DNA of 64,000 bases from an uncultured Litoreibacter sp. GTDB lineage: Bacteria > Pseudomonadota > Alphaproteobacteria > Rhodobacterales > Rhodobacteraceae. How positions within the stretch are numbered: the first letter of the stretch is position 1; each line of letters starts with the position of its first letter. The notes beneath the pieces are model-generated. The model was not told where the DNA came from. It did no database searches and was given only the letters and a program-made list of their open reading frames with translations. Of this stretch, positions 36,162-51,411 are shown in pieces. The stretch lies in NCBI RefSeq assembly GCF_947501785.1, contig NZ_CANMXB010000001.1, positions 124,001 through 188,000 on the forward strand, in the 5' to 3' direction. Made by a program: the position numbers and the translations under genes.

Positions 36162-36527
36162 GTGGACGAGCTGCTACGCGAATACCTGCCCATCCTTATT
36201 TTGTTGGCGATTGCGATTGGTTTGGGGTTGATCCTCATCCTCGCCGCCGTGGTGCTGGCGGTACGGAATCCCGACCCCGAAAAAGTGTCCGCCTACGAAT
36301 GCGGGTTCAACGCTTTTGATGATGCGCGGATGAAGTTCGATGTGCGCTTCTACCTGGTGTCCATTCTCTTCATCATATTCGACCTCGAGGTTGCCTTCCT
36401 CTTCCCATGGGCCGTGGCCTTCAAGGATGTGGGGCTGCTGGGCTTCTGGTCGATGATGATCTTCTTGGCGGTGCTGACAATCGGCTTCGCCTACGAGTGG
36501 AAAAAAGGAGCTCTCGAATGGGAGTGA
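36162..36527 (+). CDS. nuoA: NADH-quinone oxidoreductase subunit A
   Basis: A 121-residue complex I membrane subunit with three helices. The conserved [20 protein letters not shown] loop follows the first helix and lies near the quinone chamber. GTG 36162 has AAGGAGA 7 nt upstream. First of fourteen nuo genes. It overlaps nuoB by 10 bp. Confidence 0.97.
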
Positions 36528-37051
36528 TGGCTGGCGCAAATACTGCGGGTTGGGACAAGGATGTCGCCACGCAGGAACTGAATGCGGAACTGCAGGACAA
36601 GGGCTTCCTTGTCACCTCGACCGAAGACATCATCAACTGGGCGCGCACAGGGTCCTTGCACTGGATGACCTTCGGGCTTGCCTGCTGCGCGGTTGAGATG
36701 ATGCACACCGCCATGCCGCGCTACGACATGGAACGGTTTGGGACAGCGCCGCGCGCTTCCCCCCGCCAGTCGGACCTGATGATCGTTGCGGGCACCCTGA
36801 CCAACAAAATGGCCCCTGCGCTGCGCAAGGTCTACGACCAGATGCCAGAGCCGCGCTACGTGATCTCCATGGGGTCGTGTGCCAATGGCGGCGGCTATTA
36901 CCACTACAGCTATTCGGTGGTGCGCGGCTGCGACCGCATCGTGCCGGTGGACCTCTACGTGCCGGGCTGCCCGCCCACGGCCGAGGCGCTGCTTTACGGC
37001 ATCCTGCAGCTGCAACGCAAAATCCGCCGGACCGGCACCATTACCCGCTAA
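36518..37051 (+). CDS. nuoB: NADH-quinone oxidoreductase subunit B
   Basis: A 177-residue subunit that carries the terminal [4Fe-4S] cluster N2, with cysteines in [18 protein letters not shown] and PGCPPTAE. It passes electrons to quinone together with NuoD. ATG 36518 has GGAG about 8 nt upstream inside the nuoA end; ATG 36527 is an alternative. Confidence 0.97.
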
Positions 37052-37060
37052 GGACAAGAC

Positions 37061-37672
37061 ATGACCGAAGCCCTGCAAGAGCTGGCCACGTATATCGAAA
37101 CGAAACGCCCCGACTGCGTGCTGGAATGGTCCGTTGCCAATGACGAGCTGACCGTGAATGTGGCGCCTGCCTCGCTGGTGTCTTTCTCGGAGTTTCTGAA
37201 GACCGACGCGACCTGCCGGTTCTCGACCATGATCGATATGACCGCCGTGGACTACCCGACCCGCGACATGCGGTTCGACGTGGTCTACCACTTCCTGTCG
37301 ATGTACCAGAACCACCGCATCCGCATCAAAGTGGCGATCCGGGAAGAGGAAACCGTGGCCTCGCTGGTCGACATCTACCCCGCCGCCAACTGGTTTGAGC
37401 GGGAGATTTTCGACATGTTCGGCATCCTGTTTACAGGTCACCCCGACCTGCGCCGCATCCTGACGGATTACGGATTTCGCGGGCATCCGTTGCGCAAGGA
37501 CTTCCCGACCACAGGCTACGTGGAATTGCGCTACGACGAAGAGCAAAAGCGCGTGGTCTACGAGCCGGTGACGCTTGTGCAGGAATACCGCCAATTCGAC
37601 TTCATGTCCCCCTGGGAAGGCGCGCAATACGTGCTGCCGGGTGACGAGAAGACAGAGGAAGGCAAGGCCTGA
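37061..37672 (+). CDS. nuoC: NADH-quinone oxidoreductase subunit C
   Basis: A 203-residue peripheral-arm subunit. The signature is ERE(I)FDMFGI followed by [14 protein letters not shown] and [12 protein letters not shown]. It packs against NuoD and NuoB and is separate, not fused with NuoD as in E. coli. Its stop shares a base with the start of an inserted sulfotransferase gene. Confidence 0.97.
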
Positions 37673-38532
37673 TGCCGCAAGGCCCCTCAGATATGCCGAC
37701 CGTGATGTACGGGGTGGGCGCGACGAAGGCCGGCACCAGCTGGCTGTACCGCTATTTGGACACGCATCCCGATTGCGCCATGCCAATCCCGAAAGAGCTG
37801 CATTATTTTGACCGCGCGGAGGGGTTCTTCAAACGCGATCTGGCGGCGCTCTATCAGGCGCGGGCGGACAAGCTGAACCCGAACGCGCCGCGCGCAATTG
37901 CGTTTCGGCGCTACATTCTGATGCTGCGCGATCAGGCGGCAAATGACGTGACCTATAAGGATTACGTGCGGGACGTGGCCGGGCCTGCGCCGCTCTTTGG
38001 CGACATCACGCCGTCTTACGCGCTGGTGTCCACCGATATGCTGCGCCGCATGGCGCAGGTCGCCCCGGTGACCAAATTTGTCTACCTGATGCGCGACCCG
38101 GTGGCGCGGCTGTGGTCCAACATCCGCATGCAGGCGTCGATCAAGGCCGAACGCAAGGGCGGCGACGCAGAGCGCTTCGCCACGGAAATCGCGCAGGACT
38201 ATCTGGACGACCGCAGCCAATCGGTCGCCGCGCGATCAGACTATGTTGGCGCGTTGAAGCGACTGGGCGCGGCGGTGCCGGCCAGTGACGTGTTTGTCGA
38301 GTTCTATGAGCGCCTGTTTTCGAACGACACCATAACGCGGCTCTGCGCGTTTCTGGGCATTCGCGACGTGCCGGGCGATTTCGGCAAGATGGTGCATCAA
38401 GGGACGTCCATGACGCTTGCCCCCGATTTGGGCGCGGCGCTTCGGGCAAAGCTGGCCCCGCAATATGCGGGCGTGGCGGAACGATTTAACGACTTGCCCG
38501 ACGCGTGGCAGGCAAAGATGGGAGCGGCCTGA
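37672..38532 (+). CDS. sulfotransferase family protein inserted between nuoC and nuoD
   Basis: A 286-residue cytosolic-type sulfotransferase. The 5'-phosphosulfate loop is [14 protein letters not shown] (near residue 16), and the 3'-phosphate binding strand-helix is [14 protein letters not shown] (near 140). Both are needed to bind [15 protein letters not shown] follows the P-loop, as in heparan-type members. It would sulfate a hydroxyl or amino group of an unknown acceptor. TGATG overlaps at both ends couple it to nuoC and nuoD. Its GC content and codon use look like the neighbours, so transfer is not obvious. Confidence 0.9.
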
Positions 38533-39749
38533 TGGACGGCTCGAAATTCAACGACGCCCTGACGGGCGAGCAGAAGATCCGCAACTTCAACATCAACTTC
38601 GGGCCGCAGCACCCTGCCGCCCACGGCGTGTTGCGCTTGGTGCTGGAGCTGGACGGCGAGATTGTAGAACGCTGCGACCCCCACATTGGCCTGCTGCACC
38701 GTGGCACCGAAAAGCTGATGGAAAGCCGGACCTATCTGCAGAACCTGCCGTATTTTGACCGGCTGGATTACGTCTCGCCGATGAACCAGGAACATGCATG
38801 GTGCCTGGCGATCGAGAAGTTGACGGGGACCGAGGTGCCACGCCGCGCCTCGTTGATCCGGGTGCTGTATTCCGAGATTGGCCGCATCCTGAACCACCTG
38901 CTGAACGTCACCACGCAGGCCTTGGACGTGGGCGCGCTGACCCCGCCGCTTTGGGGCTTCGAGGAACGCGAAAAGCTGATGGTGTTCTATGAACGTGCCT
39001 GTGGCGCGCGCCTGCACGCGGCCTATTTCCGCCCCGGTGGCGTACATCAGGACCTGCCGGAGGACCTGATCGACGATATCGACGAATGGACCGGCGGCTT
39101 CCTGAACACGCTCAGCGACATTGACGGTCTGCTGACCGACAACCGCATCTTCAAGCAGCGCAACGCTGATATCGGCATCATCTCGGAACAGGACATTCTC
39201 GATTACGGCTTCACCGGCGTCATGGTGCGCGGGTCGGGGCTGGCTTGGGATCTGCGCCGGTCGCAGCCCTACGAGTGCTACAACGAATTCGACTTCGAAA
39301 TTCCCGTCGGCAAGAACGGCGACTGCTACGACCGCTACCTGTGCCGGATGGAGGAGATGCGCCAGTCGATCTCGATCATCCGTCAGGCGATTGAAAAGCT
39401 GCGCGCGCCCGAGGGCAAGGGCGATGTCATGGCACGCGGCAAGATGACCCCGCCGCCGCGCGCCGAGATGAAGACCTCGATGGAGGCGCTGATCCACCAC
39501 TTCAAACTCTATACCGAGGGCTTCCACGTGCCTGCGGGCGAGGTTTACGCTGCCGTTGAAGCCCCAAAGGGCGAATTCGGGGTCTACCTTGTCGCCGACG
39601 GCACCAACAAACCCTACCGCGCCAAGATGAAGGCCCCGGGCTTCCTGCATCTGCAGGCGATGGACTACATCTGCAAAGGCCACCAACTGGCGGACGTGGC
39701 CGCGATCATTGGCACCATGGACGTGGTGTTTGGGGAGATTGACCGATGA
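38532..39749 (+). CDS. nuoD: NADH-quinone oxidoreductase subunit D
   Basis: A 405-residue 49-kDa-type subunit. [14 protein letters not shown] forms part of the quinone pocket, with the conserved His and, later, the Tyr in [13 protein letters not shown]. It is related to [NiFe] hydrogenase large subunits but lacks the metal ligands. Start 38532 overlaps the sulfotransferase stop by one base. Confidence 0.97.
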
Positions 39750-40021
39750 AATTTTTGACCTTTGTCGCAGCTGCAACACTCGTCGCCCCCGCTTTTGCCG
39801 ACGGCCACCAGCAGCCGGACCTGTCGGACCTGATCTCCGACACGCTGGGCTATGTGCAGGTGCGTGAGAATGTGGTGATCCTTGAGGGCGAAACCATGGG
39901 GTCGTTCATCTGCCGGTTCGACATTCGCAACGGTGCCTTCGAAAATTACAAAGAAACCGGGGAGCTGGGTGGCGAGCAAGCCGAATACGCCTGCATCCCC
40001 GTCGAGGAGCTTGAGAACTAA
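39746..40021 (+). CDS. small exported protein between nuoD and nuoE
   Basis: A 91-residue protein with signal peptide [18 protein letters not shown]. The mature domain of about 73 residues has two cysteines (SFICRFD and EYACIPV) that probably form a disulfide. ATGA overlap with nuoD, and nuoE follows with no gap, so expression is tied to complex I. No family recognised; a periplasmic role in assembly or stability is a guess from context. Confidence 0.75.
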
Positions 40022-41179
40022 ATGCTACGCCGCCTCCATAAAGAGCAGCCTGACAGCTTCGCCTTCACACCTGACAATCAGGCCTGGGCAGACGCTCAGA
40101 TCACCAAATACCCCGAGGGCCGTCAGGCCTCGGCGATCATTCCGCTGTTGTGGCGCGCGCAGGAACAAGAGGGCTGGCTGACCCGTCCCGCCATCGAAGG
40201 CATCGCGGAGATGTTGGGCATGGCCTATATCCGCGCGTTGGAAGTGGCGTCGTTCTACTTCATGTTCCAATTGCAGCCCGTGGGCAGCGTCGCGCATATC
40301 CAGATTTGCGGCACCACGTCCTGCATGATCTGCGGGGCCGAGGATCTGATCGAGGTCTGCAAACGCAAGATCGCGCCCAACCCGCATGAGCTGTCGCCAG
40401 ATGGCAAATTCAGCTGGGAAGAGGTTGAATGCCTGGGCGCCTGCGCCAATGCGCCGATGGCGCAGATTGGCAAGGATTACTACGAGGACCTAACCGCCAA
40501 ACGCGTGGGCGACCTGATCGACATGTTGGACAAGGGCGAGGTCCCAACCCCTGGGCCGCAGAACGGGCGCTACGCCGCCGAGCCGCTTAAGGGTCTGACA
40601 TCATTGACGGAATATGACAGCGGCAAGACGCAATATAACGCGTCTGTGCAGCTGGCGGCCGATATTGGTGATACGGTAAAGCGCATTGACGGCACCGAAG
40701 TACCGCTGCTGGCCCCTTGGGGGCAGGCCGCGCCAACGCTGGGCGGCACGCCCGCGCCGAAACCCAAGGCGGCAGCGAAACCCGCGCCGAAGACAGACGC
40801 CAAGCCGAAGGCCAAACCCGCTGCGAAACCAGCAGCCAAACCGACCCCCGCCAAGGCAGAGGCCAAACCGGCCAAGAAGCCCGTGGCCAAGGACGGCAAG
40901 CCGGAGATGCTGAAGAAGGCGCGCGCCGGGGGCGCGGATGATCTCAAGATGATCAAAGGCGTCGGCCCCGCATTGGAGAAATTGCTCAACAAGCTGGGCG
41001 TTTATCATTTTGACCAGGTCGCCGGGTGGCGCAAAGCCGAGGTGGCCTGGGTCGACGAAAATCTCGAAGGATTCAAAGGTCGCGTCAGCCGCGACAATTG
41101 GGTGGCTCAGGCCAAGACCCTCGCCAAAGGGGGCAGTACTGAGTTTTCAAGCCGCGTCAAAAAAGGCGGCGTCTACTAA
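40022..41179 (+). CDS. nuoE: NADH-quinone oxidoreductase subunit E with H3TH C-terminal extension
   Basis: A 385-residue protein. Residues 1-180 are the normal NuoE thioredoxin-like domain holding [2Fe-2S] cluster N1a, with cysteines in CGTTSCMIC and [11 protein letters not shown]. Residues about 240-289 are a Pro/Ala/Lys linker. Residues 290-385 are a helix-hairpin-helix (H3TH-type) domain with [19 protein letters not shown] and [10 protein letters not shown]. coli NuoE is about 166 residues, so more than half is extra. The tail is about 75 percent identical, by my count, to that of the next gene's product. Confidence 0.95.
40741..40890 (+). repeat. Ala/Lys/Pro-coding low-complexity tract in nuoE
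   Basis: Repeated AAACCCGC-type units encode [20 protein letters not shown]-like sequence. It links the NuoE core to its H3TH domain, and a similar tract occurs at 41581-41797. Such tracts can change length by slippage. Confidence 0.7.
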
Positions 41180-41210: not shown

Positions 41211-42086
41211 ATGACAACCAGTGGTTCAAAGTCGAGCTGTTATCTGTGGTGTGCGATTATCGGGGGGCTGATTGGCCTTCTCGCATTCCTTCTGCTGATG
41301 ATCGTCGGGGATTGGAGCTTCCTGCCCGCGGTGATGATCGGCGCCATAATTGCGGCAATCGGGATTTTCGCGTTTCCGCCGATGTTCTGTAGCGAAAGCA
41401 AGGCCGCGGTCAACACCGGCAATACGGGCGCGTCCGCGCAAGATGGTGGATCCTCTGATGCGACAATTTCCACGCCGCCCGCGGCGTCTGCGCTGAATGC
41501 GGGGTCGGCCACCACCACGTCAACCTCCTCCGCGGCGGCAGCAGCAACAGCTGCGCCTTTGGTGTCTGAGCCACCTAAGGAAGACGCGCCGGCCAAGAAG
41601 CCGGCGGCCAAGAAACCTGCTGCGAAGAAACCCGCGGCTAAGAAAACGGCCGCCAAACCAGCCACCAAGCCAGCCGCCAAAGCGGCAGCTAAACCCAAGG
41701 CGGCTGCCAAGCCTGCAGCCACCAAGCCTGCTGCCACCAAGGCCGCGGCCAAACCCGCAGCGGCGAAAGCGGCCAAGCCGAAGGCTGCGCCGGTTGCCAA
41801 GGACGGCAAGCCGCCGCTTTTGAAAAAGGCACGCGCCGGTGGCGCAGACGATTTGAAGCAGATCAAAGGTGTTGGCCCCGGTCTGGAGAAGACGCTGAAC
41901 GAGCTGGGCTTCTACCATTTCGACCAGATCGCCGCATGGCGCAAAAAGGAAATCGAATGGGTCGATGATCGCCTGAAGTTCAAAGGCCGCATCGTGCGCG
42001 ACGAGTGGACGAAACAAGCCAAAACTCTGGCCAAAGGGGGGACAACCGAGTTCTCCAAGAAGGTCAAAAAGGGCGGCGTGTATTGA
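41211..42086 (+). CDS. membrane protein with NuoE-like H3TH C-terminal domain
   Basis: A 291-residue protein. Two membrane helices lie at about 9-31 and 35-54 (GLIGLLAFLLLMIVGDW, then AVMIGAIIAAIGIFAF). A Ser/Ala/Thr linker and a long Ala/Lys/Pro tract run to about residue 196. Residues 197-291 are an H3TH domain nearly matching the NuoE tail ([28 protein letters not shown] end). It lies 31 bp after nuoE and is probably a duplicate of the tail fused to a membrane anchor. Function unknown; it might tether or compete with the NuoE tail. Confidence 0.85.
   Translation: MTTSGSKSSCYLWCAIIGGLIGLLAFLLLMIVGDWSFLPAVMIGAIIAAIGIFAFPPMFCSESKAAVNTGNTGASAQDGGSSDATISTPPAASALNAGSATTTSTSSAAAAATAAPLVSEPPKEDAPAKKPAAKKPAAKKPAAKKTAAKPATKPAAKAAAKPKAAAKPAATKPAATKAAAKPAAAKAAKPKAAPVAKDGKPPLLKKARAGGADDLKQIKGVGPGLEKTLNELGFYHFDQIAAWRKKEIEWVDDRLKFKGRIVRDEWTKQAKTLAKGGTTEFSKKVKKGGVY
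41581..41797 (+). repeat. Ala/Lys/Pro-coding low-complexity tract
   Basis: Repeated GCCAAGAAACCCGC-like units encode alternating KPAAK blocks between the membrane helices and the H3TH domain of the gene after nuoE. Prone to length change. Confidence 0.7.
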
Positions 42087-42109: not shown

Positions 42110-42334
42110 ATGACGGGTTCCGACGATAACGGTGCTCGGTCCCGGCGGGGGAGGCAGTTGGCCTTCATCATCGCCGGGACCGCAGTGGCCTATGTCGGGG
42201 TCCAGCTGATCGGAGCCATGAACGGGTGGACCACCCGCACCATGGGCTTCTTCGATCTGGCCGCATTGGCCGTATTTGGATGGGCGCTGGTCAGCGCTTT
42301 TATGATCTGGCGCTCTGGCCAGAACGACAGTTAA
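42110..42334 (+). CDS. small membrane protein, DUF5337-like
   Basis: A 74-residue protein with a basic N-terminus and two membrane helices (about residues 16-36 and 46-66). It resembles the DUF5337 proteins found in rhodobacteral nuo operons, an assignment from memory of context rather than a search. It lies 23 bp after the H3TH membrane protein and 12 bp before nuoF. Its role is unknown, but the size fits an accessory membrane subunit. Confidence 0.72.
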   Translation: MTGSDDNGARSRRGRQLAFIIAGTAVAYVGVQLIGAMNGWTTRTMGFFDLAALAVFGWALVSAFMIWRSGQNDS

Positions 42335-42346
42335 GGGACGCAAGCG

Positions 42347-43645
42347 ATGCTCGCAGATAAAGACCGGATCTTTACCAACCTCTACGGGATGCATGACCGC
42401 ACCCTGAAGGGCGCGAAGGCGCGCGGCCATTGGGACGGCACGGCGAAGATCATCAAACGCGGGCGCGACAAGATCATCGAAGAGATGAAGGCCTCTGGCC
42501 TGCGCGGACGCGGCGGGGCGGGTTTTCCCACGGGGCTGAAATGGTCCTTCATGCCCAAGGAAAGCGACGGCCGCCCGTCCTATCTGGTGGTCAATGCCGA
42601 CGAATCCGAGCCGGGCACCTGCAAAGACCGCGAGATCATGCGCCACGACCCGCATACGCTGATCGAGGGCTGCCTGATCGCGTCCTTCGCGATGAATGCG
42701 AACGCCTGCTACATCTATATCCGCGGCGAATACATCCGCGAGAAAGAGGCGCTGCAAGCTGCCATTGACGAATGCTACGAGGCCGGCCTCGTCGGGCCCA
42801 ACGCCGCGAAATCCGGCTGGGATTTCGACATCTACCTGCACCACGGGGCAGGGGCCTACATCTGCGGCGAAGAAACCGCATTGCTGGAAAGCCTTGAGGG
42901 CAAAAAGGGCATGCCGCGCATGAAGCCGCCATTCCCTGCCGGAGCGGGCCTCTATGGCTGCCCGACCACGGTGAACAACGTGGAATCCATCGCCGTGGTA
43001 CCAACAATCCTGCGCCGTGGCGGCGACTGGTTCGCAGGCTTTGGCCGCCCGAACAACACAGGCACCAAGCTGTTCGCGGTCTCCGGCCATGTAAACAACC
43101 CATGTGTGGTTGAGGAAGCCATGTCCATCAGCTTTGAAGAGCTGATTGAGAAGCATTGCGGCGGTATTCGTGGCGGCTGGGACAACCTGAAAGCGGTAAT
43201 CCCCGGCGGGTCCTCCGTTCCATGTGTGCGCGGCGAGAACATGAAAGACGCGATCATGGATTTCGACTACCTGCGCAACGACCTGCAGTCGGGTCTGGGC
43301 ACGGCGGCGGTGATCGTGATGGACAATGACACCGACATCATCAAAGCCATCTGGCGCTTGGCCAAGTTCTACAAACACGAAAGCTGCGGCCAATGCACAC
43401 CGTGCCGTGAAGGCACCGGCTGGATGATGCGGGTGATGGAACGGCTGGTGAAAGGCGAGGCGGAGGTCGAGGAGATCGACATGCTGCTCGACGTCACCAA
43501 GCAGGTCGAAGGCCACACCATCTGCGCGCTGGGCGACGCGGCGGCTTGGCCCATTCAGGGCCTGATCCGCAACTTCCGCGACGAGATTGAAGACCGCATC
43601 AAGCATAAACGCTCGGGTGCGGCGACGGCGGTTGCGGCGGAATGA
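42347..43645 (+). CDS. nuoF: NADH-quinone oxidoreductase subunit F
   Basis: A 432-residue NADH-binding subunit. FMN and NADH sites are [14 protein letters not shown] and [19 protein letters not shown]. The [4Fe-4S] cluster N3 ligands are [10 protein letters not shown] with a fourth Cys in TICALGD. It accepts the hydride from NADH and works with NuoE and NuoG. Its stop overlaps the following lipoprotein gene by 4 bp. Confidence 0.97.
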
Positions 43646-44034
43646 TGACGCGTCTCGCCATCTTCGTATCTGTTGCCTTGTCGCTAGCAGCTTGCGAAAC
43701 CGAAGCACAGATCGGTAGGAATGCTGTGGTCGTCGAACGCTATGACGCGTTGAACGATGGCGAAAAGCTATTTGTTTTGGGAGCAGTCGGAGATTTGGCA
43801 ATCGGGTGTCGCTCGCTCGATTTCTCCACACTTTTCGGACGAAAAGATGGTCCGCAACGCCCAAATGAGAAGGTCGCCGCAACTGCGCAGGCCCAACGAG
43901 ATTTCGCAGCTGCGGAACGGCGGTTCTTGGCGAAGCACAGGTTTACAGAAGGCCAGAAACTGGACCCTTGCGTCGTGGGAAGAAAAGAAATGCGTGATCA
44001 GACATTGATCGGCCAACTACTGGTAGCGAAGTGA
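43642..44034 (+). CDS. DUF5333-like lipoprotein between nuoF and nuoG
   Basis: A 130-residue protein with lipobox LSLAAC (Cys near residue 18). Its C-terminal pattern RFLAKH...[16 protein letters not shown] matches that of the exported protein at 44728 (RFMDKH...C..GKAEMADETDIGNLL), so the two are paralogues. ATGA overlap with nuoF. It is markedly less GC-rich than the nuo genes around it. Function unknown; a periplasmic accessory role for complex I is inferred from position. Confidence 0.75.
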
Positions 44035-44390
44035 GGTACAGTTTGAATAGACATTTAGTTCTCGGTCTTGGTTTGTTCGTTGCGGCATGCGAGCCGGGGG
44101 CGTTTGACGCCAAACCCGAGGTGCCGAAGGGCCCGCCCATCGAGATCACCAAAGCGGTGCGCGCCGGTGATACGGCAAAGATCACCATGCGCTACAAAGA
44201 CGGCGGCGTGATCCCGCGCGAGGATGAAAGCCGGGCGGTGCTCAAAGCCATGGAAATCTCCTGCCAGGAAGGCGAGTCCGGCATCCCAGACACCCGGACC
44301 CGGGCCGAAGGTCAATTGACGGTCAACATCTTCTGCGTGGGTGTTCTGACCAGCGACGAGGTCATTGACGGCTCAGGGCTGAAATCGTGA
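44031..44390 (+). CDS. small lipoprotein of unknown function
   Basis: A 119-residue protein with lipobox LFVAAC (Cys near residue 20). The mature part has two cysteines (ISCQEG, IFCVGV) that may pair. The start is uncertain. GTG 44031 overlaps the upstream stop (GTGA), but TTG 44043 has GAGG 6 nt upstream and would give a shorter signal peptide. No family recognised. The next gene starts in its stop codon. Confidence 0.7.
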   Translation: MRYSLNRHLVLGLGLFVAACEPGAFDAKPEVPKGPPIEITKAVRAGDTAKITMRYKDGGVIPREDESRAVLKAMEISCQEGESGIPDTRTRAEGQLTVNIFCVGVLTSDEVIDGSGLKS

Positions 44391-44731
44391 TGCTGCGGGG
44401 CCTGCTGATCATATCGCTGGCACTTGCCGTGGCCTCCTGCGGGCGGCTTGGGATTGGCAACGCCTCGAAACGGGCGGAAACCGAGAACACGCTGCCCTTC
44501 AAGGCCAAGCTGAAGAAGGGCGAGGAGCGCGACTTTGCGGTGACCGTGGCCAACAAGGGCGCGGGCGTGGCTGAGGTGCGCGAAAGCGTCCGGTTTGAAG
44601 CCACCAAATACTGCCTGCTGACCTTTGGCGGCTCGGATGTGGAGTGGACCATTAACCCGGCCTCCAAAGACTGGGCATTCAGCCAGGACGGCGACAGCCT
44701 CACCTTCAATGGAAGGTGCTCCGCCCTGTGA
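44390..44731 (+). CDS. small lipoprotein of unknown function
   Basis: A 113-residue protein with lipobox AVASC (Cys near residue 17). The mature part has two further cysteines (KYCLLTF, GRCSAL). ATG 44390 overlaps the preceding stop by one base; GTG 44387 is in frame just upstream. Its end overlaps the DUF5333-like gene by 4 bp. The beta-rich look and paired cysteines resemble the previous lipoprotein, but clear homology between them is not visible by eye. Confidence 0.7.
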   Translation: MLRGLLIISLALAVASCGRLGIGNASKRAETENTLPFKAKLKKGEERDFAVTVANKGAGVAEVRESVRFEATKYCLLTFGGSDVEWTINPASKDWAFSQDGDSLTFNGRCSAL

Positions 44732-45132
44732 ACCGCATCCCGGCATATCTGCTGAGCGCCTCTGTGATGGCGGCGGCAACGCCCGCCATGGCAGAGCTGC
44801 GCCCGGCGCCGGACTATTTCATCGGTGCGTTGATCGCGACCGAAATTGCGCAAGCCATTGCCATCAACTGCCCGGTGCTCAGCGTGAACCCGCACGCGGC
44901 GCAGAAGATGTCCGAGGATGTGATGAACTGGCTGGCGGAGGACGGGTTTGACGAGGCCGACCCGACATCGGAGATGGAAAACCCCAACGACCAGCTGAAC
45001 GCGCTGCAGGCGCGGTTCATGGACAAGCACCAACTGGCAGGCGCGGGGGCCGACAAGGTTTGCGCAGCCGGCAAGGCGGAAATGGCGGATGAGACGGATA
45101 TTGGCAATCTGCTGGTGGAGGTGGCGCAATGA
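44728..45132 (+). CDS. DUF5333-like exported protein
   Basis: A 134-residue protein starting at GTG 44728, with signal peptide NRIPAYLLSASVMAAATPAMA. Two cysteines (INCPVLS and KVCAAGK) probably form a disulfide. It resembles DUF5333 proteins of Rhodobacteraceae, by recall, and is a paralogue of the lipoprotein at 43642. Overlaps of 4 bp at both ends. Periplasmic, function unknown. Confidence 0.75.
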   Translation: MNRIPAYLLSASVMAAATPAMAELRPAPDYFIGALIATEIAQAIAINCPVLSVNPHAAQKMSEDVMNWLAEDGFDEADPTSEMENPNDQLNALQARFMDKHQLAGAGADKVCAAGKAEMADETDIGNLLVEVAQ

Positions 45133-45614
45133 AGGGCCATCATCTGGCAGAGCTGAATATCGGGCGGCTTTTGGCCGGCGTTGACGACCCGCGCGTCGCG
45201 GAATTCATCGACAATATTGACCGCATCAACGGCCTGGGCAAACGCATGCCGGGTTTTGTGTGGATGCTGGAAGGTTCTGGCGGGCCAGGGGCCACGGGTC
45301 ACGCGATAGGCGGCGACGCGTTGCTGGTGCCGAACCTGACGGTCTGGGAAGACGCCGCTAGCCTGGAAACCTTTGTCTGGGGCACCGTGCACAAGCAATT
45401 CTACGAAAAGCGCGCCGAGTGGTTCGAAGTGCTGGGCAAAATGCATTTCGTCATGTGGTGGGTGCCGGAAGGCCATAAGCCAACCCTGGACGAGGCGCTG
45501 GAGAGACTTGAGATGCTGAACGAGAGGGGCGACAGCCCCGACGCGTTCGGTTGGGATTATTTGAAAGAGGCCACCATGTGGAAGACGCATGGCTGCCAAG
45601 TTGCAGCGGAGTAA
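45129..45614 (+). CDS. DUF3291 domain protein (dimeric alpha-beta barrel type)
   Basis: A 161-residue cytoplasmic protein. HHLAELNIGRLLA begins a strand-helix pattern, and FYEKRAEWFEV and MHFVMWWVPEGHKPTLDEA are typical of DUF3291, a family related to ABM monooxygenases and chlorite dismutase-like barrels. No heme ligand or activity can be assigned. ATGA overlap with the preceding gene and 3 bp to nuoG. Confidence 0.85.
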   Translation: MKGHHLAELNIGRLLAGVDDPRVAEFIDNIDRINGLGKRMPGFVWMLEGSGGPGATGHAIGGDALLVPNLTVWEDAASLETFVWGTVHKQFYEKRAEWFEVLGKMHFVMWWVPEGHKPTLDEALERLEMLNERGDSPDAFGWDYLKEATMWKTHGCQVAAE

Positions 45615-45617
45615 CGC

Positions 45618-47636
45618 ATGAGCGACCTACGCAAAATCATCATCGACGACAACGAGGTTGAGGTCGATCCGGCCATGACGCTCATTCAGGCTTGCGAAGT
45701 GGCCGGGATCGAGGTGCCGCGCTTCTGCTACCACGAGCGTCTGACCATCGCGGGCAATTGCCGTATGTGTCTGGTGGAAGTCGTGGGCGGCCCGCCGAAA
45801 CCTGCCGCGTCTTGCGCAATGCAGGTGCGCGACCTGCGTCCCGGGCCGGAAGGGCAGCCGCCGGTGGTCAAGACGAACTCCCCCATGGTCAAGAAAGCCC
45901 GCGAGGGCGTGATGGAATTCCTGCTGATCAACCACCCGCTGGACTGCCCGATCTGCGATCAGGGTGGGGAATGCGATTTGCAAGACCAGGCAATGGCTTA
46001 CGGGGTGGACTTCTCACGGTTCCGCGAACCAAAACGCGCCTCCACCGACTTGGATTTGGGGCCGCTGGTCGAAACCCACATGACGCGCTGCATCTCCTGC
46101 ACCCGCTGCGTGCGGTTCACGTCCGAGGTCGCTGGCATCACGCAGATGGGCCAGACTGGTCGTGGCGAAGATGCGGAGATTACCTCCTATCTGGGCGAGA
46201 CGCTGGATTCGAACCTGCAAGGCAACATCATCGACCTTTGCCCCGTGGGCGCGCTGGTCTCGAAGCCCTACGCTTTCACGGCGCGGCCATGGGAGCTGAC
46301 CAAGACCGAAAGCATCGACGTGATGGACGCGCTGGGGTCCAACATCCGCGTGGACACCAAGGGCCGCGAAGTGATGCGCTTCCTGCCGCGCAACCATGAC
46401 GGCGTGAACGAGGAATGGATTTCCGACAAAACGCGTTTTGTCTGGGATGGCCTGCGCCGCCAGCGGTTGGACACGCCCTACATTCGCGAAAACGGCAAGC
46501 TGCGGAAGGCCTCTTGGCCGGAGGCGCTTTCGGCGGCGGCTACTGCGATGAACGGCAAGAAGGTGGCTGGTCTCGTGGGTGATTTGGCCTCCACCGAAGC
46601 CGCATACGCGTTGAAAACTATGATCGAAGGCATGGGCGGCACCGTCGAATGCCGCACCGATAACGCCAAGCTGCCTGCGGGCGAGCGGGGCGGGTATGTG
46701 GGCAACGCCACGATCGAAGACATTGACGACGCCGAGATGATCATGCTGATCGGCACCAACCCTCGCGAAGAAGCACCGGTGCTGAACGCGCGGATCCGCA
46801 AGGCGTGGACCAAGGGCTGCAAGGTCGCCATGATCGGCGAGAATGTGGACCTGAGCTACGACCATATCCAGATCGGCTCCGACCGTGAGGCTTTGGCCAA
46901 GCTGGCCGAGATGGACCATTCCGACAAACACGGTAAGCGCGGCGTGATGATCATCGGGCAGGGCGCGTTGAATGAAGCTGACGGCGACGCGGTGCTGGCA
47001 ACGGCACTTGCCACGGCGGCGGCTGGTCAGTCCAAGGTGATGATCCTGCACACTGCTGCTGGTCGTGTTGGGGCCATGGATGTGGGTGCCGTGACCGAGG
47101 GCGGCATGAAAGCCGCGACCGAAGGTGCGGACGTGATCTACAACATGGGGGCCGACGAGATTGACATAGCGGCGGGCCCGACCGTGATCTACCAAGGCAG
47201 CCACGGCGACCGCGGGGCGCATCGCGCGGACATCATCCTGCCTTCGGCGGCCTATACCGAAGAGAATGGCGTGTTCGTGAACACCGAAGGGCGGCCTCAG
47301 TTGGCCTTGCGCGCGGGCTTCCCGCCCGGTGAAGCCAAGGAAAACTGGGCGATCCTGCGGGCGTTATCCGCAGAGCTGGGCCAGACCCTGCCATTCGATT
47401 CAATGGCGCAGCTGCGCACCCAGATGATCGAAGCCGTGCCGCATCTGGCAATGATCGACGACGTGCCGGAGAACACCTTGCCCGCGGCCAAGCCCAAGAA
47501 GATGGGCAAGGCGGCGTTCCGCAACGTGGTCTCTGATTTCTACCTGTCCAACCCCATTGCCCGCGCGTCGGAACTGATGGCGGAACTGTCTGCCAATGCC
47601 AAAGCGCGGGCCGGCGAAAAGATTGCGGCGGAATAA
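45618..47636 (+). CDS. nuoG: NADH-quinone oxidoreductase subunit G
   Basis: A 672-residue iron-sulfur subunit. The N-terminal [2Fe-2S] ferredoxin domain has [15 protein letters not shown]. The His-Cys3 cluster follows around [17 protein letters not shown], then [4Fe-4S] site [10 protein letters not shown]. The rest is a molybdopterin-oxidoreductase-like domain without the cofactor. The length is that of the shorter alphaproteobacterial/mitochondrial form, shorter than the E. coli protein. Confidence 0.97.
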
Positions 47637-48035
47637 ATGATGAAACCTCTTCATATCGCGGCATTCGGACTGGCCTTGGCCAGCCTTGCCGCGTGCGAGG
47701 AGGTGGACCCGACAGAGGATTACTTCGCCCCTGAATATATTGGCGTGGAAACCCGCAAGCTGGACAACGAGATCGTCAGCTTTCTGGTCCGCATGAAGGG
47801 CGCGCGCACCAATGCGGACGTGGCCGATTACGGCAAATGCGCTGCGGCGCAATACGCGCTGATCCGCGGCTTCGGATTTGCCCGCCATGTGCGGACAAAT
47901 GTGCAGGAACGGGGTGGCATTTGGGCGGCGGATGCGGTTTACACCATCTCGGCTGCTTTGCCCGAGGGACTACAAACCATCGACGCCGAAGTGGTGGTCG
48001 CAGAATGTGCCGAAAACGGCATACCTACAGTGTGA
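47637..48035 (+). CDS. small lipoprotein between nuoG and nuoH
   Basis: A 132-residue protein with lipobox LASLAAC (Cys near residue 20). The mature chain has two more cysteines (YGKCAAA, VAECAEN). It starts right after the nuoG stop, with ATG 47637 or 47640 possible, and ends 6 bp before nuoH. No family recognised; YGKCAAAQYALIRGFGFARH suggests a small helical domain. It is another lipoprotein tied to complex I expression. Confidence 0.75.
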   Translation: MMKPLHIAAFGLALASLAACEEVDPTEDYFAPEYIGVETRKLDNEIVSFLVRMKGARTNADVADYGKCAAAQYALIRGFGFARHVRTNVQERGGIWAADAVYTISAALPEGLQTIDAEVVVAECAENGIPTV

Positions 48036-48041
48036 GGACGC

Positions 48042-49079
48042 ATGGCTGAATTTCTAACAACCCCGGCCGGAATTGCCCTGATCATCGTGGCGCAATGCCT
48101 TGCGGTGATCGGCTTTGTGATGGTCTCCCTGCTGTTCCTCGTCTACGGCGACCGCAAGATCTGGGCGGCAGTGCAAATGCGCCGTGGCCCGAATGTGGTG
48201 GGCGCGTGGGGCCTGCTGCAAACCGTGGCCGATGCGCTGAAATATGTGGTTAAGGAAATCGTCATTCCGGCGGGCGCCGACAAGACGGTGTTCATGCTCG
48301 CGCCCATGCTGGCCTTCGTCTTGGCCCTTATTTCATGGGCTGTGATCCCGTTTAACGACACATGGGTGCTGGCCGATCTGAACGTGGCGATCCTCTATGT
48401 CTTCGCAATCGGCTCTTTGGAGGTTTACGGCGTGATCATGGGCGGCTGGGCGTCGAACTCCAAATACCCGTTCCTAGGCTCGCTGCGGTCCGCCGCGCAG
48501 ATGATCAGCTACGAGGTGTCGATTGGCCTGATCATCATCGGGGTGATCATCACCACAGGTAGCTTGAATTTCGGCGACATCGTCCGCGCGCAGGACGGCA
48601 ATTACGGCTTCTTCAGCTGGTACTGGCTACCGCATTTGCCGATGGTGTTCCTGTTCTTCATCTCCGCTTTGGCGGAAACCAACCGCCCGCCGTTTGACCT
48701 TCCGGAAGCGGAATCAGAACTCGTCGCGGGCTATCAGGTGGAATATTCCTCCACCCCGTTCCTGCTGTTCATGGCCGGCGAATACATCGCCATCTTCCTG
48801 ATGTGCGCGCTGATCACGCTCTTGTTCTTCGGCGGCTGGCTGTCCCCAATCCCGGGCTTGCCCGATGGGGCGCTTTGGATGGTCGGCAAAATGGCCGTGT
48901 TCTTCTTCTTGTTCGCGATGGTGAAAGCCATCGTGCCGCGCTACCGCTACGACCAGCTGATGCGTCTGGGCTGGAAAGTCTTCCTGCCCTTCTCGCTGGC
49001 ATGGGTCGTGGTCGTGGCGTTCTTCGCTCAATACGGGGCCTTTGGCGGCGCATATGCCCGCTGGGCCGTAGGAGGTTAA
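48042..49079 (+). CDS. nuoH: NADH-quinone oxidoreductase subunit H
   Basis: A 345-residue membrane subunit with eight helices, the junction of the membrane arm with the quinone site. Signatures are [14 protein letters not shown] and [20 protein letters not shown]. It links quinone reduction to proton pumping. Confidence 0.97.
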
Positions 49080-49083
49080 CCGC

Positions 49084-49575
49084 ATGGCAACGTCTCTCGC
49101 CCGCAAGGCCAAGTATTTCCTGCTCTTTGATTTCTTCAAAGGGTTTGGGCTGGGCATGAAATACTTCTTCGCGCCCAAGGCCACGGTGAACTACCCGCAT
49201 GAGAAGGGGCCGCTGTCGCCTCGTTTCCGCGGCGAACACGCGCTGCGCCGCTACCCCAATGGGGAAGAACGCTGTATTGCCTGCAAGCTCTGTGAAGCCG
49301 TGTGCCCTGCGCAAGCGATCACCATTGATGCTGAGCCGCGCGATGACGGCTCCCGCCGCACCACGCGCTATGACATCGACATGACCAAATGCATCTATTG
49401 CGGCTTCTGTCAGGAAGCTTGCCCGGTGGATGCGATTGTCGAAGGCCCGAATTTCGAATTCGCCACCGAAACCCGCGAGGAGCTGTTCTACGACAAAGAC
49501 AAGCTGCTGGCGAATGGTGACCGTTGGGAAGCCGAGATCGCCCGCAATCTGGAAATGGATGCACCTTACCGATGA
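49084..49575 (+). CDS. nuoI: NADH-quinone oxidoreductase subunit I
   Basis: A 163-residue protein with two [4Fe-4S] motifs, [15 protein letters not shown] and [15 protein letters not shown] (clusters N6a and N6b), that carry electrons toward NuoB. An amphipathic N-terminal helix binds the membrane arm. Its stop overlaps the next gene (ATGA). Confidence 0.97.
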
Positions 49576-49973
49576 CCGACGCCAAGAACCCTTTTGAAGC
49601 GATGATGAAGATGGGGCAGGACATGGCCAAGACCATGAATCCTGCGCTTGAGGCGTTCACGCCCAAAGGGTTCGAAAATATGATGCCCACCATGCCAGCC
49701 GACATGATGGAACAGTTCATGGGCAAGGGCGTCAGCCCAGAGGGGTTGGATGCCAAGACACGCCTGCTGCTGACGCTGACCGGGTTGACCATCCAAGGCG
49801 CGCAGGCCGAAAGCCAGATCAGGCTGACCGTGCGCCATCTGGTGGAAGCCGGGGCGACGAAACAAGAAATAGCCGAAACCATCGCGCAGGCCGCGATGTT
49901 TGGCGGCGTACCCGCGATGTCGAAAGCCATGGAGCTGGCGACCGAGGTGTTGGACGGAGAGAAGGAAGACTGA
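49572..49973 (+). CDS. carboxymuconolactone decarboxylase-like protein lacking Cys
   Basis: A 133-residue helical protein. Residues 55-125 match the CMD/AhpD helical core ([40 protein letters not shown] in two parts), but it contains no cysteine, so an AhpD-type CxxC peroxidase activity is excluded. The N-terminal 50 residues are Met- and Pro-rich. It overlaps nuoI by 4 bp and nuoJ by one base. A structural or regulatory role within complex I expression is possible. Confidence 0.82.
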
Positions 49974-50587
49974 TGGGATTTGCAGATTTTGCATTCTACC
50001 TGTTCGCAATCACGGTGGTCACAGCCGGGTTGTTCGTGGTGGTGTCTCGAAACCCCGTGCACTCGGTGCTGTGGCTGATCCTGGCCTTCCTGTCCTCCGC
50101 CGGGTTGTTCGTGCTGCTGGGCGCCGAATTCGTCGCCATGCTGATGATCATCGTCTATGTAGGCGCGGTCGCCGTGCTGTTCCTCTTTGTTGTCATGATG
50201 CTGGACGTGGATTTTGCGGAACTCCGTGGGGAGCTGGCCAAGTTCGTCCCGCTCGCCGGGCTGATCGGCGTTATTTTGTTGATGGAACTGGCGCTAGTCT
50301 TCGGCGTCTGGCAGGGCGCGGAGAATGCGACGGCATTGCGCGATGCGGTCACGCCCGACCTGAACGAGACGCAGAACACCGCCGCCTTGGGCCTGCTGAT
50401 CTACACCAAATACATCTACCTCTTCCAAGCCGCCGGCTTGATCCTGCTGGTCGCCATGATCGGCGCGATTGTCCTGACATTGCGTCACCGCGAGGACGTC
50501 AAACGCCAGAACATCCTCAGCCAGATCTACCGCGATCCAGCCGAGCAGATGGAATTGAAGAACGTTAAACCGGGGCAGGGGCTGTAA
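49973..50587 (+). CDS. nuoJ: NADH-quinone oxidoreductase subunit J
   Basis: A 204-residue membrane subunit with five helices. The helix containing [21 protein letters not shown] has the pi-bulge region that moves during turnover. Followed 3 bp later by an inserted exported-protein gene. Confidence 0.96.
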
Positions 50588-50590
50588 CGC

Positions 50591-51411
<821 letters not shown>

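Follow-up and report, generated by a model that had tools for sequence, protein, structure and literature searches.

A bacterial sulfotransferase gene is generally expected next to the glycan or metabolite genes that it serves, and the heparan sulfate NDST and 3-O-sulfotransferases are eukaryotic Golgi enzymes. In Rhodobacter capsulatus and Paracoccus denitrificans, the nuo/nqo clusters contain unidentified ORFs between their nuo genes; no sulfotransferase is known to be among them. In this report, we describe a sulfotransferase gene that lies between nuoC and nuoD in an uncultured Litoreibacter sp., within a 64,000-nucleotide stretch of DNA that was analysed as a whole (hereafter, the window). 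The enzyme family is already known; that its members have stayed for so long between nuoC and nuoD throughout a bacterial family is something we did not find described in the open-access literature searched (subscription journals were mostly outside its scope). Passages of PMC4859585 and PMC9696053 hold nothing on a sulfotransferase in this slot, those of PMC12361115 mention no sulfotransferase, and those of PMC6731281 are unrelated.

The locus and its seams

The sulfotransferase ORF is intact, begins with ATG and encodes 286 amino acids. It and the neighboring part of the nuo operon are laid out as follows.

36210–36527, + strand: nuoA (Oxidored_q4, by Pfam), part of a longer open frame
36407–37051, + strand: reading frame that we take to be nuoB from its sequence and position; NuoB proper begins inside it
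37061–37672, + strand: nuoC, upstream partner, TGATG overlap (NCBIfam NF004733, 345 bits against a cut-off of 225)
37655–37662, + strand: GAGGAAGG, Shine-Dalgarno-like candidate close to the 3' end of nuoC, read from the sequence
37672–38532, + strand: slot sulfotransferase (clade A), 286 aa (ORF, Pfam, tree)
38532–39749, + strand: nuoD, downstream partner, TGATG overlap (NCBIfam NF004739, 617 bits against a cut-off of 360)
39746–40021, + strand: accessory ORF of the nuoD-nuoE interval, 91 aa, overlapping the nuoD stop (no Pfam match)
40022–41179, + strand: nuoE (family scan)
41211–42086, + strand: accessory ORF of the nuoE-nuoF interval, resembling the C-terminal part of the NuoE model (NCBIfam)
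42110–42334, + strand: accessory ORF of the nuoE-nuoF interval, DUF5337 (Pfam)
42347–43645, + strand: presumably nuoF, from its sequence and position
43642–45614, + strand: five accessory ORFs of the nuoF-nuoG interval (ORF list, Pfam), given in the next five lines
43642–44034, + strand: accessory ORF, weak DUF5333 (Pfam)
44031–44390, + strand: accessory ORF (no Pfam match)
44387–44731, + strand: accessory ORF (no Pfam match)
44716–45132, + strand: accessory ORF, DUF5333 (Pfam)
45129–45614, + strand: accessory ORF, DUF3291 (Pfam)
45618–47636, + strand: nuoG (family scan)

The TGA of nuoC occupies positions 37670–37672, and its final base is the first of the sulfotransferase ATG at 37672; the sulfotransferase TGA (38530–38532) shares its final base with the nuoD ATG at 38532 in the same manner. 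A preliminary description of this DNA had reported an intact ORF with two sulfotransferase motifs, joined by TGATG overlaps to nuoC on one side and nuoD on the other; base positions bear out both overlaps, and both motifs are present in 37672–38532. The candidate ribosome-binding element GAGGAAGG lies nine bases 5' of the sulfotransferase ATG. Promoter-like sites numbered zero in 36900–39000 against 0.4 expected from shuffles, a count that is uninformative either way, and three terminator-like sites were found against 2.0 expected.

The sulfotransferase is not the only extra gene in this operon. Additional ORFs are also present in the window at the D-E, E-F, F-G, G-H, I-J and J-K junctions. 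Among the Litoreibacter nuo loci (n = 19, the window's included), junctions longer than 100 bp occur at C-D in 13/19, D-E in 16/19, E-F in 19/19, F-G in 18/18, G-H in 18/18, I-J in 18/18 and J-K in 13/17, and at A-B and B-C in 0/18 and 1/19, respectively; L-M and M-N were left out of these counts because of NuoL/M/N cross-hits. An additional gene between nuo genes is thus unremarkable for this lineage, though less so when it encodes a sulfotransferase.

Some of the accessory DNA merits separate mention. The ORF at 41211–42086 matches positions 187–399 of the NuoE model NF009040, below its cut-off, and from this alignment it seems to repeat the C-terminal extension of the neighboring NuoE. Among the accessory ORFs in 42110–51109 are a member of the carboxymuconolactone decarboxylase family (49569–49973) and several further frames without a match. 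In G015, the nearest to the window's genome among those compared here, nuoB and nuoC stand some 394 bp of additional DNA apart (locus L018, 2909–3305), and the same interval measures –4 to 25 bp in the other 18 loci.

Distribution of the gene and contents of the slot

Six of the 21 Litoreibacter genomes carry a sulfotransferase in the slot. The copies in the other five are 84% (G015), 56% (G010), 46% (G020), 42% (G017) and 40% (G008) identical to the window protein. Thirteen genomes have a nuoC-nuoD junction without the gene, which is to say that it is absent from 13 of the 19 nuo loci of the genus; nuoD was not found in two incomplete genomes.

Beyond the genus, the order nuoC-sulfotransferase-nuoD recurs widely. 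Among the best 80 loci from named genomes, which were picked by likeness to six slot sequences (a six-row alignment) and thus favor the slot, the match lies between nuoC and nuoD in 76; two of the others stand beside nuoC at a contig end (L057, L081) and two lie elsewhere (L074, L095). We found nuoD in 381 of 394 family genomes, and took the 150 whose NuoD most resembles the window's, one per genus except for two from Litoreibacter. In at least 49 of these 150, a sulfotransferase lies no more than 3 kb from nuoD, and in 44 of those no more than 60 bp away; 49 is a lower bound in that none of the matches listed is weaker than about 1.5e-48. No sulfotransferase was found beside nuoD in the remaining 101, and the slots of 40 of these, an even choice made by hand, were read and hold no intact copy. 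At E 1e-40, 142 of the 394 family genomes match the sulfotransferase, off-slot copies included. In a class-wide sample, 7 of 289 genomes match at E 1e-30; three belong to the family, the window's own included, and the four outside it show no nuo gene in flanks of about 1.5 kb. The arrangement is therefore neither unique to one strain nor decaying, an outcome that the preliminary description had named as fatal to its reading: the ORF is intact and the order recurrent. The gene does reside in the nuo operon, as a subunit or obligate accessory factor of complex I might; such a component would also be present wherever that complex I is in the lineage, and the sulfotransferase is present in only 6 of 19 nuo loci of the genus and at least 49 of 150 family genomes. 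It is not general to complex I.

Fifty-three loci without the gene (13 from Litoreibacter and 40 from other genera) comprise 19 empty slots, with a gap of at most 20 bp, and 34 with other DNA. The view that nuoC and nuoD are normally adjacent has to be qualified accordingly. Other cargo includes an ORF of the GFA family (in L130, and in L027 after the sulfotransferase) and, in the scanned locus L118, one of a lumazine-binding-like family. Eight of the 40 loci from other genera (L117, L120, L122, L124, L135, L138, L144 and L149) encode, as judged by eye, a small hydrophobic protein of about 57 aa; it has no Pfam match in the one example scanned (L120). In L119, which has no intact slot copy, a fragment between nuoC and nuoD aligns to the clade A profile over 67 positions (E 5e-8, 102 frames searched) and, on this match, is likely a relic of gene loss by decay.

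A TGATG or TAATG, in which a stop codon runs into the nuoD start, is present in 51 of the 53 loci without the sulfotransferase and in 53 of the 80 scored loci (of 82) with it. The preliminary description had argued that coupling so exactly preserved implies selection for co-expression. That argument fails, and coupling as evidence of joint function is ruled out, because the overlap is there in the absence of the gene as well; the 3' seam belongs to nuoD and the slot. Probably, nuoD needs such a stop codon for its translation, and surviving inserts tend to end likewise. The locus is thus a clear case in which tight stop-start coupling can reflect the insertion site and the downstream gene rather than a joint function.

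Descent, selection and two kinds of enzyme

Trees were compared over 75 loci (85 loci, reduced to 78 by length filters, minus L075, which comes from the same genome as L023, and the non-clade-A loci L033 and L104). FastTree served for the comparisons of splits and distances; quick IQ-TREE runs gave the 110-row tree and the set B tree discussed below, in which 33/105 and 44/110 inner branches are open. The sulfotransferase and NuoC+NuoD trees have 30 of 72 splits in common. Between the NuoC tree and the NuoD tree the figure is 31 of 72, and 500 label permutations gave at most 3. Well-supported NuoC+NuoD splits contradict 12 of the 43 well-supported sulfotransferase splits. With 30/72 splits common but 12/43 in conflict, descent has been mainly, but not wholly, vertical.

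The sulfotransferase has diverged much faster than its neighbor, with a mean tree distance of 2.5 vs 0.30 for NuoD. Its dN/dS ranged from 0.08 to 0.35 in 15 pairs, in which distant pairs are near saturation, and was 0.15 between the window and G015; nuoD gave 0 to 0.12 over those 15 pairs, and in one pair nuoC stood above the sulfotransferase. These low values indicate purifying selection. On such sequence comparisons, the enzyme is constrained, but loosely.

Slot copies come in two kinds. In the 110-row tree, clade A (SH-aLRT 97) takes in 84 of the 95 slot rows, including the window's, and comes to 86 rows when the off-slot L074 and L095 are added. The remaining slot copies, which we call set B, have their profile scores in common; on the set B tree they need 4 changes, 1 of which is forced by starred branches. 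Scoring of 91 slot loci, with the window's own locus outside the count, gave nuoC-A-nuoD in 75, nuoC-B-A-nuoD in 8, nuoC-B-nuoD in 5, A-A in 2 and B-B in 1; at least four genomes are counted twice (L024/L036, L023/L075, L088/L168 and L110/L188), and L188–L191 were added since their genomes showed two copies. Thirteen further slot loci have no sulfotransferase. The eight B-A loci represent six distinct genomes, in all of which B is upstream of A, and five of the six upstream B copies form a supported group (SH-aLRT 99). Within Litoreibacter, G008 has a B copy only and the other five slot genomes have A only; the six copies do not form one group (3 changes on the 110-row tree).

The label "in slot", set against the off-slot rows, needs at least 3 changes on the 110-row tree. 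Together with the 12/43 conflicting splits, this makes some replacement likely and more than one entry into the slot possible. An old B-A pair with differential loss is one simple reading of these sequences; repeated entry by related enzymes is a possible alternative. A bolder idea is that the slot once held a two-enzyme B-A sulfation module, which supplied the respiratory membrane with a doubly sulfated quinone, glycolipid or complex I lipid at a constant ratio to complex I itself, and of which lineages lost one or both members. We regard this idea as improbable, the more so because the B enzymes do not resolve as one clade.

The protein, its acceptor and rival explanations

The window protein matches Pfam Sulfotransfer_3 (PF13469) at 57.0 bits against a cut-off of 27 (E 4e-15) and, over the cut-off, Sulfotransfer_1 (E 8e-8); an NCBIfam scan at E 0.001 matched no model. 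Three elements stand out in alignments.

37717–37743, + strand: residues 16–24, GATKAGTSW, presumably the 5'-phosphosulfate-binding (5'-PSB) loop
37792–37797, + strand: residues K41-E42, invariant in 42 rows
38089–38118, + strand: residues 140–149, which include RDPxxRLWS, presumably the 3'-phosphate-binding (3'-PB) motif

In alignment A2, whose 42 rows include one gene twice (that of G010, as L010 and L024), the non-clade-A row L013 and the off-slot rows L074 and L095, residues E42, R141 and S149 are invariant (42/42), and position 19 is K in 40 rows and R in 2. All 8 rows of alignment A3 have the counterparts of K19, E42, R141 and S149 (K, E, R and S). In heparan 3-O-sulfotransferase-3 (1t8t), the residue aligned with E42 is the Glu of AEPHFFD, which we take to be the catalytic base of that enzyme.

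The AlphaFold model (mean pLDDT 92.6, pTM 0.90) is closest to 3rnl (Z 20.9, rmsd 2.7, 227 aligned residues, 25% identity). NDST1 follows with Z 20.0–20.9 and the heparan 3-O-sulfotransferases with 19.4–20.2 (3-OST-3, 20.2); sulfotransferase domains of the curacin and olefin synthase pathways give 14.1–14.6, tyrosylprotein sulfotransferases 13.2–13.6 and SULTs about 10–12. Family match, conserved PAPS residues and predicted fold agree in pointing to a PAPS-type sulfotransferase, as had been proposed. Hydropathy over 19 residues peaks at 0.95, a value at which a membrane span is not to be expected, and the enzyme is presumably cytosolic. It is one of seven Sulfotransfer_3 matches in its genome, of which six are over the cut-off. 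An APS kinase is encoded in this genome and in 20 of the 21 Litoreibacter genomes, the one miss being 57% complete; PAPS should thus be available. The kinase is no marker of the slot gene, as it occurs in those 20 genomes with or without it.

Off-slot relatives offer a hint as to the acceptor. L158, L159 and L175 adjoin KpsE/KpsM-like and ABC exporter genes, and L157 adjoins an ABC ATPase; the KpsE and KpsM matches reach E 1e-57 and 1e-22, yet lie below NCBIfam cut-offs. The predicted fold, the conserved Glu and these capsule-export-like neighbors favor a glycan or glycolipid acceptor. The hint is weak, since the relatives with such neighbors form a separate off-slot group, 31–34% identical to the window protein, and visual inspection places another off-slot group (L160 and L162–L165) next to housekeeping genes. 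Nor, again by eye, does a capsule cluster surround L074 and L095, which are the closest of the off-slot copies and fall inside clade A. By fold and analogy, then, a glycan or glycolipid is the probable acceptor, and involvement in complex I or quinone chemistry is a possibility. Separately, we observed an alpha/beta-hydrolase-like stretch and a sulfotransferase in one open frame in L157 (3474–5159), L159 (2388–4772) and L175 (3664–6141), both domains being identified by Pfam in L157 and by eye in the other two.

Taking these lines together, we give about even chances to the following account. The gene encodes a soluble PAPS-dependent sulfotransferase with an NDST/3-OST-like fold, long lodged in a permissive nuoC-nuoD slot. 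One nuo message would cover it; in the window's strain, ribosomes ending nuoC would restart on it by stop-start coupling, helped by the Shine-Dalgarno-like GAGGAAGG, and nuoD would be restarted from its stop. The slot would lend it steady expression tied to respiration. With PAPS from the cell's own APS kinase, it would sulfate a hydroxyl or amine group on an acceptor, such as a glycan or glycolipid, that is synthesized on the inner side of the membrane. It would be dispensable for complex I, and lineages could lose it.

The strict position of the gene over many genera could, alternatively, signify a true tie to complex I. The enzyme might serve respiration by sulfating a complex I subunit, a quinone or a respiratory-membrane lipid, its place in the operon keeping it in step with NuoC and NuoD. 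A mycobacterial sulfotransferase that reportedly modifies menaquinone furnishes a precedent, and the slot position in 76 of the best 80 named loci, the largely vertical descent and the coupling to both neighbors in the window's strain all suit this idea. We nevertheless judge it rather unlikely: no copy was found beside nuoD in 101 of 150 genomes (nor an intact one in the 40 slots read), 13 of 19 nuo loci in the genus lack it, other ORFs occupy the slot elsewhere, and the predicted fold is nearest to carbohydrate sulfotransferases. Should the acceptor indeed be a respiratory lipid or quinone, complex I would be linked to a novel type of chemistry.

Another possibility is a small-metabolite acceptor (phenolic, polyketide-like or other), with the enzyme serving detoxification, secretion or signaling and simply expressed from nuo. 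Fast divergence would suit changing acceptors, the curacin and olefin synthase domains match too, and the title of the best match, 3rnl, names no acceptor; but the SULT match is the weaker (Z about 10–12 vs 20–21), and the Glu common to 3-OST is invariant, so we hold this unlikely. The same invariance, in 42/42 and 8/8 rows, tells against a PAPS or PAP sensor, catalytically dead or regulatory, that acts on nuo expression; conserved nucleotide-site residues would suit such a sensor without directly supporting it, and we think it very improbable. That the gene is a recent insertion peculiar to the strain, with seams kept by chance, is scarcely credible despite a slot copy in only 6 of 21 genus genomes. 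Its GC content (0.633, vs 0.593 for nuoC, 0.615 for nuoD and 0.611 for the window) and the purifying selection speak against it, and a recent unique insertion is ruled out by recurrence of the slot over many genera with congruent trees.

Here, a sulfotransferase has been kept inside a central respiratory operon across many genera, mostly by descent, while many others do without. Sister species with and without the gene at one site offer a natural comparison for finding the acceptor.

Among known systems, the nuo/nqo clusters of R. capsulatus and P. denitrificans are alike in having extra ORFs between nuo genes. The Alicyclobacillus acidocaldarius protein 3RNL is the best PDB match by both sequence and structure, in an entry titled just "sulfotransferase". 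The heparan sulfate NDST and 3-O-sulfotransferases resemble the slot protein in predicted fold (Z 19.4–20.9, 16–23% identity) and, for 3-OST-3, in the aligned Glu; the slot protein differs from them in being bacterial, in having no expected membrane span and in being encoded in a respiratory operon. Finally, the PAPS-dependent sulfotransferases of PF13469 are alike in profile match, PAPS loop, RDPxxRLWS motif and predicted fold, and the slot proteins are set apart within that family in that most of them make a clade of their own.
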